Shown: one piece after another, positions 17,805-22,157 of the stretch | Layout of the letters: the number at the start of each line of letters is the position of its first letter | Position numbering within the stretch: the first letter of the stretch is position 1 | Assembly: GCA_016870815.1 (NCBI GenBank) | Contig: VGAI01000007.1 | Location: 1 to 38,425, forward strand | Length of the DNA: 38,425 bases | Direction of reading: 5' to 3' | Source: Actinomycetota bacterium | Lineage (GTDB): Bacteria; Actinomycetota; Actinomycetes; Nanopelagicales; Nanopelagicaceae | Notes under the pieces: model-generated | Databases searched by the model: none | Seen by the model: only the letters and a program-made list of their open reading frames with translations | Told to the model about the DNA's origin: nothing | Made by a program: the position numbers and the translations under genes

Positions 17805-18665
17805 ATGTCTAGAAAACCATCTTTGATGCTTGTTCATGCGCATCCAGATGATGAAACCATCAACAATGGCGTCACGATGGCGCATTACGCCAAGCTTGGC
17901 CATCGCATCACCCTGGTCACCTGCACGCGTGGTGAGGAGGGTGAAGTCTTAGTGCCAGAGCTTGCTCATCTCGCGAGTTCTGATCAGGACAAGCTCGGTG
18001 AACATCGCGAAGGAGAACTAGCAGATGCGATGCGTGTCCTTGGCATTAGCGACTTTCGTTTCTTAGGTTCAGGAAAAGTCAGATTTCGAGATAGTGGAAT
18101 GATGGGATCAGAGCCGAACGAAAGAAAAGACTCATTCTGGCAAGCCGATCTTGATGATGCAGCATCTCACTTGGCTGCTGTGATGTTAGAGGTCAAACCC
18201 GATGTCTTGATTACCTATGACGAGTTTGGTGGCTATGGCCATCCCGATCACATCAAGGCGCACCAGATTGCGATGCGCGCTGCTGAGATGATTCGAGATC
18301 GATGGGAAATCCGTAAGATCTATTGGAACACCATCCCGATTTCAGTCATCGAGGCAGGTATTAGCGCCATGAAAGAGGTAGGAAGTGACTTCTGGGGTGT
18401 TGAGAAGGCTGAAGACTTTCCTTTCGCCAAACCTGACGAGGCCGTGACAACAGTGGTCAGCAACGAGTCCTTGGTCGAGCTCAAGATGGCAGCGATGAAA
18501 GCGCATGCCACGCAGATAACAGTGGATGGGCCATTCTTTGCGCTCTCAAACAATCTTGGGGTCAAAGTCTGGGGTCAAGAGTTCTATTCACTGGTCTATG
18601 GAAAGAAGTCAGGCCCGTTTGACTCAGAGGGAAGAGAGACAGATATCTTCGCGGGGCTTGCATGA
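17805..18665 (+). CDS. PIG-L family deacetylase (MshB/Mca-like)
   Basis: LMLVHAHPDDETINNGVTMAHYAKLGHRITLVTCTRGEEGE; TYDEFGGYGHPDHIKAH: PIG-L/MshB zinc-binding motifs. Confidence 0.9.
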   Translation: MSRKPSLMLVHAHPDDETINNGVTMAHYAKLGHRITLVTCTRGEEGEVLVPELAHLASSDQDKLGEHREGELADAMRVLGISDFRFLGSGKVRFRDSGMMGSEPNERKDSFWQADLDDAASHLAAVMLEVKPDVLITYDEFGGYGHPDHIKAHQIAMRAAEMIRDRWEIRKIYWNTIPISVIEAGISAMKEVGSDFWGVEKAEDFPFAKPDEAVTTVVSNESLVELKMAAMKAHATQITVDGPFFALSNNLGVKVWGQEFYSLVYGKKSGPFDSEGRETDIFAGLA

Positions 18666-19000
18666 CCAGATCGCTGATCCGTGCGATTGTGGTTTCTGCA
18701 GTATTGGTTGTCGTAGCGGTATTTCTCCATAACACCATCTCGCCTTATGGCTTATTTCTCGCAATCGCAGTCGGACCAATTGGAATTCGATTCATCGCTA
18801 AAGGAGCGATCTCCAAGCTAGAACCTATATCGGCAGCGATCACCTGGTTCGTCCTTCTCTATCTCGCAAGCACCAACCAGAATGGCAATGAGATCCTGGT
18901 TCAGGGAGATACCAATGGCAACGCCTTCATCGTTGGCAGTAGTGCACTTATACTCTTGACCTTGATCACCTCATTTGGCAACCGTCGAGCTTCTAGATAG
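18662..19000 (+). CDS. Small hypothetical integral membrane protein
   Basis: Several hydrophobic segments, ATG overlaps upstream stop (atga); located after the mshB-like gene. Confidence 0.75.
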   Translation: MTRSLIRAIVVSAVLVVVAVFLHNTISPYGLFLAIAVGPIGIRFIAKGAISKLEPISAAITWFVLLYLASTNQNGNEILVQGDTNGNAFIVGSSALILLTLITSFGNRRASR

Positions 19001-20678
19001 CGCCCTCTCTCCACTCCCAAACTTGTCCATTCACTTCATCTCGGACTTCAATCCCTCGATCCGCCAAGAGATCACGTAACTGATCACTCTTGGCATAATC
19101 TTTTGCAGCACGCGCCTGGATTCGAGCTTCAAGGAGTAACGATTCGGCTTCACCGAGTTCTCTCGCAGGTTCGACCTCAATGCGCATCAGATCAAGACCG
19201 AGAACTTGCTCAATAGTTGCAAAGACTTCTGATTTGATCGAATCTGCCAACTGCTCATCCTTCTCGAGTGTGCGCAATCGCTGCAAGGCCCGGGGTGTAT
19301 CGAGATCGTTGGCAATATCTGAGGCAATCTCCTCGATGATTACTTGCCCTTGCCTACTCGATTCGACTGAAGGCGAAGCTGCCTGATGAGCAAAACGCTT
19401 TCGCCACCGGCGAAGCAATCGATCGGCCGCTGTAATCGAAGCCCAGGAGAGATCCATCTGGCTTCGGTAGCGATTTTCGAGGAAGCAGAATCTAACTGCT
19501 AGGGGATCAAGTCCACGTGCAATTACATCTGAGAGAAGTACAACGTTTCCTGCGCTCTTTGACATCTTTCGCCCTTCAAAGAGTAGATGTTCGCCATGAA
19601 GCCAGAGATCCACTGCCTCATCACTTGGATAGAGATCTTTCGCGACCGGATTGGACTGTGCTCGCTCATTCTCGTGATGAGGGAATCGAAGGTCGATCCC
19701 ACCGATATGAAGGTCGATATGGCCGTTCAGATAGCGAAGTGACATAGCTGAACATTCGATATGCCACCCCGGAAAACCCTTACCCCAGGGGGAATCCCAG
19801 ATCATCTCTCGCCTAGTTCCAGCAGATTTCCAGAGCGCCCAATCTGCGTGGAATCGCTTGGCTCCCGCCTCAGTAAATTCATAACGATGGCCAGGTTTGA
19901 GATCTGTAAGTCGATTACCACTCAATACGCCATAACTCTCAAATCCCTCGCTCGAGAAGTAGACCGTCCCATCTTCACCTTGATAGGCAAGATCTTTATC
20001 GATCAATTGTGAGATGTGTTGCTGCATCATCTCGATACATTCACTCGCTCGCGGATAATGATCTGCTGGCTTTATCCCAAGGAGTGCGAGATCTCGGTGA
20101 AATCTGGATTCATAGTCACGGGCTATTTCGAAGGGATCTCTCTTGCGCTCCTGTGATTCCTTCAAGACCTTGTCTTCATCAAAGTCCTCACTCATATGTC
20201 CGACATCAGTGATGTTTTGAATCATTAAGACATCAAACCCGGAAAACTCAATTGCTCGACGAATCAGGTCAGAGAGAAGGAATGTCCTTAAGTTACCTAG
20301 ATGTGCATCGCGATAAACAGTCGGACCGCAACAGTAGATTCGAACCTCTTGCGCATCACTGCTCTTGATCTCACGTACCTGCCTGGAGAGAGTGTCGTAG
20401 ATCTTGATTCCGGTTGCGCCTACTTCGCTTCCTTTCGCTTCACTGCGATTTCGGGGCAAGACTTCGCGAAGTGCAAAGACTGATCGGGGATCGAAGGTTG
20501 CGATCGAGCCATCTTTGCGTTCTACCTGGTTGGCGTTAACGAGGATTCCGAGCAAGTCTCGATATCCCCCCAATTCTTCACGGAGGCGAATGCTGACCCG
20601 CTTGCCGACAAGTGAGGCGAGATCGCGATGCTCTCTGCCAGAAGTAAGGCGACCTGACTCCCCACTAGTTGGGCTCAT
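18993..20678 (-). CDS. cysS: Cysteinyl-tRNA synthetase with N-terminal ~90-aa SH3-like extension
   Basis: Catalytic core YCCGPTVYRDAHLGNLRTF, GWHIECSAMS, FPHHENERAQS, KMSKSAGN, C-terminal ARIQARAAKDYAKSDQLRDLLADRGIEVRDEVNGQVWEW. N-terminal extension ASLVGKRVSIRLREELGGYRDLLGILVNANQVERKDGSIATFDPRSVFALREVLP. Confidence 0.93.
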   Translation of the reverse strand: MSPTSGESGRLTSGREHRDLASLVGKRVSIRLREELGGYRDLLGILVNANQVERKDGSIATFDPRSVFALREVLPRNRSEAKGSEVGATGIKIYDTLSRQVREIKSSDAQEVRIYCCGPTVYRDAHLGNLRTFLLSDLIRRAIEFSGFDVLMIQNITDVGHMSEDFDEDKVLKESQERKRDPFEIARDYESRFHRDLALLGIKPADHYPRASECIEMMQQHISQLIDKDLAYQGEDGTVYFSSEGFESYGVLSGNRLTDLKPGHRYEFTEAGAKRFHADWALWKSAGTRREMIWDSPWGKGFPGWHIECSAMSLRYLNGHIDLHIGGIDLRFPHHENERAQSNPVAKDLYPSDEAVDLWLHGEHLLFEGRKMSKSAGNVVLLSDVIARGLDPLAVRFCFLENRYRSQMDLSWASITAADRLLRRWRKRFAHQAASPSVESSRQGQVIIEEIASDIANDLDTPRALQRLRTLEKDEQLADSIKSEVFATIEQVLGLDLMRIEVEPARELGEAESLLLEARIQARAAKDYAKSDQLRDLLADRGIEVRDEVNGQVWEWREGAI

Positions 20679-20754
20679 GAGGGGAAGGTTATGCGAGAAT
20701 GACGCACCGAACCTTGAGAGAATCTCAACCCCTAGCCGAAAGGAATCTCTTTCG

Positions 20755-21081
20755 ATGACTTATGTGATCGCCGAGCCATGTATCGATGTGAAGGACAAGT
20801 CGTGCATCGAGGAATGCCCAGTGGATTGCATCTATGAGGGTGGCCGGATGCTCTATATCCAGCCTGATGAATGCGTTGATTGTGGGGCTTGCGAGCCGGT
20901 CTGCCCGGTTGAGGCCATCTATTACGAGGACGATGTCCCTTCGCAATGGAGCGAGTTCAAGGGATATAACTCGGATTTCTTCGATGAGCTGGGTTCACCA
21001 GGCGGTGCGGCAAAGGTTGGGCCAACAGGCAAGGATCATCCAGTAGTTCTTCAAATCCAGAAGAAGCCGGAGAGCAACTGA
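20755..21081 (+). CDS. fdxA: Seven-iron (3Fe-4S/4Fe-4S) ferredoxin
   Basis: MTYVIAEPCIDVKDKSCIEECPVDCIYEGGRMLYIQPDECVDCGACEPVCPVEAIYYEDD. ATG 20755 is the real start, not 20404. Confidence 0.95.
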   Translation: MTYVIAEPCIDVKDKSCIEECPVDCIYEGGRMLYIQPDECVDCGACEPVCPVEAIYYEDDVPSQWSEFKGYNSDFFDELGSPGGAAKVGPTGKDHPVVLQIQKKPESN

Positions 21082-21098: not shown

Positions 21099-22157
21099 TT
21101 GCCAGATTTCCCTTGGGATCTACTGGCTCCCTATGGCGTAAGAGCAAAGAACCATCCCAAAGGAGCGATAGACCTTTCACAAGGGACTCCAGTTGATCCG
21201 ACTCCTGATTTCATTCAAAAGGCGCTACATGAAGCATCGAATGCCCCGGGTTATCCGGTAACGACAGGGTCACCGGAACTTCGTCGCGCAATCATCACGT
21301 ACTGTCGCGATCAACTCGGTGCAGCAGGGGAATTTGATGTACTGCCGGTGATCGGTTCTAAGGAATTTGTTGCCTGGTTGCCCTTCATGCTCCGTAGCAA
21401 GAAGGTACTGATACCTGAAATTGCATATCCCACATATCGCGTCGGAGCGATCATTGCGGGTGCCGAGATCAAGGAAGTGGGAATTGATGCAACGAAATGG
21501 AATACAGATTCTGGAGATCTGATCTGGGTAAATACTCCCTCTAATCCAACAGGTCGAGTTCATAGCGCCGATGAGATCACAGCCGCACTTGCGCATCGAT
21601 CGAGGGGTGCAATCGTTGCTGTTGATGAGTGTTACTTCTCCTTTGGTGATTCGAAGAAACCCATATCGACCTTTCAATTGGCGCGAGGGGATAACAAGAA
21701 TTTCCTCACTGTCCATTCGCTCTCCAAACGCTCTAATCTTGCGGGGTATCGGGGGGCCTTCGTCGCTGGGGACCCAGCGCTGATCTCGCGCCTGCTTGAA
21801 CTACGTAAACACGCCGGGATGATGGCACCGGCCCCGGTGCAGCACGCGGTAGCGGTGGCACTGGGCGATGAGGTTCACGTGCAAGAACAGGCGATGGTCT
21901 ACGCCGCACGGCGAAAACGTCTTGCACCGGCACTGACCTCGAAGGGATTTGCAGTCGACTTCTCTGATGCGGGGCTCTATATCTGGTGCTCGAATGGTGA
22001 GGAAGATTGGGCCCAGGTCGCTTGGTTTGCTGAGCGCGGAATCTTGGTAACTCCCGGGAATTTCTATGGCAAAGGGGGCGCTCGCCACATAAGAATCGCC
22101 CTCACAGCGACCGATGCGAAAATCGATGAGGCGATAGAGCGAATTCTTCATTCCTAG
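21099..22157 (+). CDS. dapC: Succinyldiaminopimelate transaminase (class I/II aminotransferase)
   Basis: PLP fold with VNTPSNPTGRV, VDECYFSFG, TVHSLSKRSNLAGYRGAFVAGD; directly after fdxA as in other actinobacteria. Confidence 0.9.
   Translation: MPDFPWDLLAPYGVRAKNHPKGAIDLSQGTPVDPTPDFIQKALHEASNAPGYPVTTGSPELRRAIITYCRDQLGAAGEFDVLPVIGSKEFVAWLPFMLRSKKVLIPEIAYPTYRVGAIIAGAEIKEVGIDATKWNTDSGDLIWVNTPSNPTGRVHSADEITAALAHRSRGAIVAVDECYFSFGDSKKPISTFQLARGDNKNFLTVHSLSKRSNLAGYRGAFVAGDPALISRLLELRKHAGMMAPAPVQHAVAVALGDEVHVQEQAMVYAARRKRLAPALTSKGFAVDFSDAGLYIWCSNGEEDWAQVAWFAERGILVTPGNFYGKGGARHIRIALTATDAKIDEAIERILHS

Follow-up and report, generated by a model that had tools for sequence, protein, structure and literature searches.

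The window, a 38,425-nucleotide stretch of DNA from a member of the Nanopelagicaceae, carries a gene for a second cysteinyl-tRNA synthetase (CysRS2) with an SH3-like domain at its N-terminus. The fusion is real and well bounded, and it gives a known enzyme family a new domain architecture, the evolutionary path to which is clear. Related genomes show each step from a GNAT gene with an SH3-like front end, through an SH3-only reading frame, to SH3 fused to CysRS2, several separate times, so that the series is both repeated and resolved at one locus. A small conserved barrel emerges from the series as a candidate partner for the second cysteinyl-tRNA synthetase. The series also opens two questions to direct testing: which ligand the Rv0428c-type SH3 domain recognizes, and what leads streamlined actinobacteria to maintain two CysRSs for one tRNA-Cys. 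No description of an SH3-CysRS2 fusion, or of a second CysRS in these actinobacteria, was found in open-licence papers.

Structure of the fusion gene

Translation of the minus-strand reading frame at 18993-20678 gave an uninterrupted protein of 561 aa (Table 1). In a profile search of this protein, the TIGR00435 (cysS) match covered aa 91-555 and scored 377.5 bits (cut-off 340). Since CysRS homology begins only at aa 91, the preceding 90 residues (20409-20678) are a true extension, as an earlier note on this DNA had held. That note had seen no ATG or GTG near the canonical CysRS start, and we likewise found none there or in the linker of the window gene; a TTG at L74 (20457-20459) is the sole late start candidate in the frame. 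An assembly or frameshift artefact was ruled out, because the same fusion is present in two other genomes of the genus (G003 and G004) and in complete single-contig genomes (G019, G064, G083, G101 and G119).

The CysRS portion is complete, also in agreement with the earlier note, and possesses the catalytic motifs, the zinc ligands and the anticodon-binding domain PF23493. We take the roles of C117, C309, H334, E338, HLGN and KMSKS to be those of established CysRS biochemistry. Among 106 CysRS2 proteins, the second position of HxGN varies between L, V and I, and the anticodon domain and conserved C-terminal residues are retained in 101. Five fused proteins of genus g8 end at about the point that corresponds to window aa 500; the whole anticodon domain is gone and all catalytic motifs are kept (L221-L224 and L229 in G129, G105, G135, G078 and G141; core of 397-399 aa).

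Table 1. Features of the SH3-CysRS2 locus in the window
Feature	Position	Strand	Remarks
SH3-CysRS2 fusion gene	18993..20678	-	561 aa; ATG at 20678, stop TAG; TIGR00435 377.5 bits
SH3-like domain, aa 21-74	20457..20618	-	A2 profile 89.8 bits; PF24551 sub-threshold; AlphaFold2 barrel
Linker PRNRSEAKGSEVGATG	20409..20456	-	without in-frame ATG, GTG or TTG
Complete CysRS2, aa 91-561	18996..20408	-	PF01406 302 bits; PF23493 28.2 bits; PDB CysRS 8qhp E 7e-81
First zinc-ligand Cys, C117	20328..20330	-	invariant in 106/106 CysRS2
HIGH-type motif HLGN, aa 126-129	20292..20303	-	HxGN in 106/106 CysRS2
Second zinc-ligand Cys, C309, in FPGWHIECSAMS	19752..19754	-	invariant in 106/106 CysRS2
HHENE zinc-ligand stretch, aa 334-338	19665..19679	-	H334, H335, E336 and E338 invariant
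KMSKS motif, aa 371-375	19554..19568	-	K, M, K and S invariant; S/A at 373
CysS_C anticodon-binding domain, aa 507-554	19017..19160	-	PF23493 28.2 bits, cut-off 23
TAACCT (TANNNT type)	20686..20691	-	7 nt before ATG of fusion gene
fdxA, divergent neighbor	20755..21081	+	
dapC	21099..22157	+	TIGR03539 448 bits
Small membrane-like ORF	18662..19000	+	convergent with cysS2, 3' overlap 8 nt; weakly DUF6113-like, sub-threshold
mshB, mycothiol biosynthesis deacetylase	17805..18665	+	TIGR03445 347 bits

Identity of the N-terminal extension

The earlier note had recognized in the extension the accessory domain of a GNAT that adjoins fdxA in many actinobacteria, and the association of this GNAT with fdxA proved to be real. 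In Pfam, PF24551 (SH3_Rv0428c) matched window aa 24-71 with 15.8 bits (E = 0.015), under the gathering cut-off of 27. In a genome search, the profile of alignment A2, in which the window sequence is itself a row, matched the extension with 89.8 bits, and the SH3 profile also recovered relatives lying outside the model. The PF24551 cut-off was exceeded by the SH3-only proteins encoded upstream of cysS2 in families f5 and f22 (41.7 and 48.1 bits). AlphaFold2 predicted a helix and a five-stranded barrel, with a pLDDT of 89-95 over aa 21-70, both for the extension alone and for the full-length protein. The best Foldseek neighbors of the barrel were the small barrels of LSm/Edc3, Hfq and GatD with E values of 0.01-0.2, which therefore support the fold class and nothing narrower. 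When PDB sequences were searched with the SH3 profile, the only matches were to uL14, at chance level, and no match to a GNAT catalytic domain was found in the fusion protein with Pfam.

Because the Pfam score alone is sub-threshold, it is the family context, synteny together with the profile built from relatives, that settles the identity. Two genomes of the same genus (G001 and G002) share the locus, the start region and the profile family with the window gene. Judged from these comparisons, the extension is homologous to the N-terminal SH3-like domain of the Rv0428c-type GNAT that adjoins fdxA in many actinobacteria.

GNAT, SH3-only and fused states of the locus

All three states occur within the genus of the window genome. 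In G001, the same syntenic spot holds a full SH3-GNAT gene directly before cysS2, whose TGA overlaps the ATG of cysS2 by one base; its product matches PF24553 (Rv0428c_C) with 64 bits and PF24551 with 24.1 bits, under the cut-off of 27. In G002, a lone SH3 frame overlaps cysS2 by 4 nt and ends in GTGA, the GTG of which is the cysS2 start. The window genome (G000), G003 and G004 have SH3 and cysS2 in one frame. The sequence CTCGCATAAYCTT lies 6-8 nt before the ATG or GTG in all five genomes, fused or unfused, in flanks that diverge (20679-20700 in the window). TAACCT/CTCGCATAAYCTT is probably the -10 element of a transcript that is leaderless or has a short leader. Since this upstream motif is common to all five genomes, the fusion gene has taken its 5' end from the former GNAT gene and its 3' end from cysS2. 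G004 also has a second cysS2 locus without SH3 on a 3.1 kb contig (G004:C66, L037), which falls inside genus g17 in the tree; the contig is probably a contaminant in this MAG.

We surveyed 121 genomes of the family, which are small actinobacterial genomes (1-2 Mb) and include many MAGs. The SH3 profile matched 101 of them, and CysRS2 was present in about 100. The loci comprised 30 with SH3-GNAT and cysS2, 38 with SH3-only and cysS2, and 17 fusions. Fifteen cysS2 loci were without SH3: 14 in g17 and the probable contaminant contig of G004. The two SH3-only loci without cysS2 that we checked (L235 in G123 and L236 in G131) have a conserved SH3-only frame beside fdxA, and cysS2 is missing between this frame and mshB. 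Three loci (L066, L069 and L078) came from public MAG records titled 'Bifidobacterium breve' that carry the freshwater-actinobacterial cysS2 locus described here; these organism labels look wrong.

Fusion was confined to SH3-only pairs (17/55, compared with 0/30 where the GNAT was whole). CysRS2 was found in 55 of the 57 genomes with a GNAT-less SH3 and in 30 of the 44 with SH3-GNAT (p 1.6e-4 by Fisher test, with no correction for relatedness). The 68 unfused pairs overlapped by 4 nt in 42 cases and by 1 nt in 10. Most SH3-only proteins stop 0-3 aa past the barrel, which leaves a clean end with no GNAT part. The linkers of the fused proteins are 7-24 aa long, and an internal ATG or GTG is absent from most of them; in G003 and G016 the old CysRS2 start survives as an in-frame ATG.

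Genera g1 and g16 each contain the GNAT, SH3-only and fused states, g8 the latter two, and g15 the GNAT and SH3-only states. The CysRS2 tree follows the genera closely. It requires at least six changes between the fused and unfused states, with gain not distinguishable from loss, and at least ten between presence and absence of the GNAT. A single clade for the 17 fusions was rejected (delta lnL 186, p-AU 8e-53). As a control, we examined four neighboring gene pairs at these loci; none of 108 cases was fused, in a small sample in which the pairs differ in overlap.

The dN/dS of SH3 was 0.09-0.15 in the SH3-only state where computable, about the level of CysRS2, and in the fused state it was 0.24 in g1 and 0.21 in g16, with 0.19-0.32 between fused relatives; the values are rough, as they were computed with no saturation filter and synonymous sites were often near saturation. 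Codon comparison of this kind indicates that the SH3 domain stays under purifying selection.

CysRS2 and the other CysRS genes

The window genome also possesses a canonical cysS (C15:7686-9059), which is about 34% identical to CysRS2, and an mshC-like gene (C1:27713-28705). A canonical cysS was present besides CysRS2 in every genome checked. In a quick tree, actinobacterial CysRS2 grouped with Euzebyales (99) and next with Chloroflexota (95-96), apart from canonical actinobacterial cysS, which agrees with the Chloroflexi-like branch suggested in the earlier note. The horizontal replacement that the note had considered was ruled out: because the canonical cysS and the mshC-like gene remain in the genome, CysRS2 is an addition. 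It is a long-standing second CysRS, since it occupies this locus throughout the family and is also found beyond it, in further families of actinobacteria. An MshC identity of CysRS2 was rejected (TIGR03447 224 bits, cut-off 485).

In a pattern search of 14 genomes, 13 had a single canonical tRNA-Cys (GCA), whether CysRS2 was present or not. The remaining genome, G123, had two tRNA-like matches, one of them 37 bases from a contig start. With one GCA gene in 13/14 genomes, a second, dedicated tRNA-Cys was rejected as a candidate, and no tRNA gene was found within the window.

Discussion

The analysis shows three states at one locus in sister genomes, with loss of a domain, gene overlap and repeated fusion, and it shows that SH3 is under purifying selection and that the catalytic and zinc-binding residues of CysRS are intact. 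The account that we favor, with moderate confidence, is that the front end of an SH3-GNAT gene and cysS2 fused after loss of the GNAT, and that SH3 is a putative non-catalytic docking or RNA-binding module of CysRS2. The SH3-GNAT gene divergent to fdxA contributed its promoter region, its start and its SH3-like domain, and the downstream cysS2 gene contributed the rest. Loss of the GNAT catalytic domain produced an SH3-only frame with its stop overlapping the cysS2 start, and this overlap junction then became a single reading frame. SH3 and CysRS2 would putatively have been coupled in trans first and fixed in cis later. We infer that the barrel serves CysRS2 either as a docking surface, through which the GNAT or some other partner would once have been kept on the enzyme, or alternatively as an RNA-binding patch that might help to hold tRNA. 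CysRS2 is predicted most likely still to activate cysteine, and the window protein, in which the anticodon domain is intact, most likely still to charge the single tRNA-Cys.

In favor of SH3 as a module of CysRS2 we count the confinement of fusion to SH3-only pairs, the 0/108 result for neighboring gene pairs, the loss of the internal start from most fusions, the more frequent co-occurrence of CysRS2 with GNAT-less SH3, and the recurrence of SH3-only next to or near cysS2 in f5 and f22. A direct precedent, which we count likewise, is the SepCysE, SepCysSn and SepCysSN series of archaeal tRNA-dependent cysteine synthesis (PMC8762117). In that series, too, a longer partner protein is reduced to one domain, which persists either as a small peptide or joined to the enzyme that it serves. 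The fold, enzyme and pathway differ from those described here, where binding between SH3 and CysRS2 is putative.

The main rival explanation is that SH3 is a passenger with its own job beside fdxA, unrelated to cysteine, and that small indels repeatedly joined the two frames into a tolerated fusion with independent halves. Neither partner absolutely needs the other, because SH3-only occurs without cysS2 (G123, G131 and across the class) and CysRS2 occurs without SH3 (the 14 g17 loci). Since each partner survives alone in some lineages, and the SH3-CysRS2 interface is putative, this rival is a serious one; the 4-nt overlaps would also make frame joining easy, and G003 and G016 still have an ATG from which CysRS2 might start. 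However, the neighboring pairs, some of which also overlap (mshB with the DUF6113-like gene, dapC with NTPtr), never fused, in contrast to the at least six state changes seen here. The loss of the internal start from most fusions and the higher co-occurrence of CysRS2 with GNAT-less SH3 than with SH3-GNAT also argue against independent halves. On balance we regard the passenger explanation as possible but rather unlikely.

It is less probable again that CysRS2 functions mainly in activating cysteine for thiol, persulfide or peptide chemistry, with SH3, and originally the GNAT, as pathway partners. A canonical cysS is present in addition wherever checked, only one normal-type tRNA-Cys gene is present per genome in 13/14, and the five g8 fusions have dispensed with the anticodon domain and kept the catalytic motifs. 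The locus, which adjoins mshB and has a GNAT, resembles MshB/MshC/MshD chemistry, and MshC (Cys:GlcN-Ins ligase) is, like CysRS2, derived from CysRS. On the other hand, the anticodon domain and conserved C-terminal residues persist in nearly all CysRS2 proteins, the protein scores as a CysRS (377 bits) and lies below the MshC cut-off, and the genome has a separate mshC-like gene. In its most extended form, CysRS2 and SH3/GNAT would make up a conserved extra-translational cysteine-activating system of abundant freshwater actinobacteria, for example a mycothiol-linked persulfide or acyl-cysteine system, in which SH3 would replace anticodon recognition in the anticodon-less clade; we give this proposal slightly less credence still. 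The CysRS* of Desulfobacterales (PMC9437257) is also an extra, non-canonical CysRS, and the g8 fusions, like it, are without the anticodon domain. In contrast to CysRS*, which is paired with SelC*, its own tRNA nearby, the window CysRS2 has an anticodon domain and no accompanying tRNA.

The least probable explanation, which we hold to be very doubtful, is that of an annotation artefact in which CysRS2 begins at the TTG at 20459, a permitted start in an open frame, and the 74 upstream codons are an untranslated or separate leader; the earlier note had named such a start as evidence against a fusion, but the SH3 part is conserved at the codon level among fused relatives (dN/dS 0.19-0.32), the homologues in the genus have ATG or GTG starts that follow the conserved upstream motif in each of the five genomes, and a usable start near the core is absent from most fused relatives.

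Among known proteins, CysRS2 resembles bacterial CysRS (TIGR00435/PF01406 and PF23493; E. coli 1LI5/1U0B) in fold, zinc ligands, HxGN, KMSKS and anticodon domain, but it is a second copy beside the canonical cysS and carries the SH3-like domain. With the Rv0428c-type SH3-GNAT (PF24551 and PF24553) the fusion shares the SH3-like domain, the fdxA-side locus, and the start and upstream motif of the sister GNAT, although it has CysRS2 in place of the GNAT domain. The checks proposed in the earlier note detected profile and fold similarity of aa 1-90 to SH3, both a second cysS and an mshC-like gene, and 17 fusions among the 121 family genomes. Its interpretation stood as to a GNAT-derived SH3 on a complete CysRS and failed as to replacement, and it had missed the SH3-only intermediate, the 4-nt overlap and the recurrence.

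Outside the family, no fusion was found in 22 members of the class with CysRS2. SH3-only lies directly before cysS2 in f5 and f22, apparently adjacent to it in f35 and nearby in other families. In f5 (L040, L270, L271, L275 and L276), the SH3-only frames lie about 55 nt upstream of cysS2, within open frames of 200 or more codons that extend toward fdxA. Across many families of the class, the SH3 domain is anchored beside fdxA, whether or not the GNAT is present and whether or not cysS2 is. The neighborhood may even predate the class, because a Euzebyales genome (L082) carries, close together, fdxA with an adjoining SH3-only frame, a CysRS of the CysRS2 type and a MarR-like regulator.
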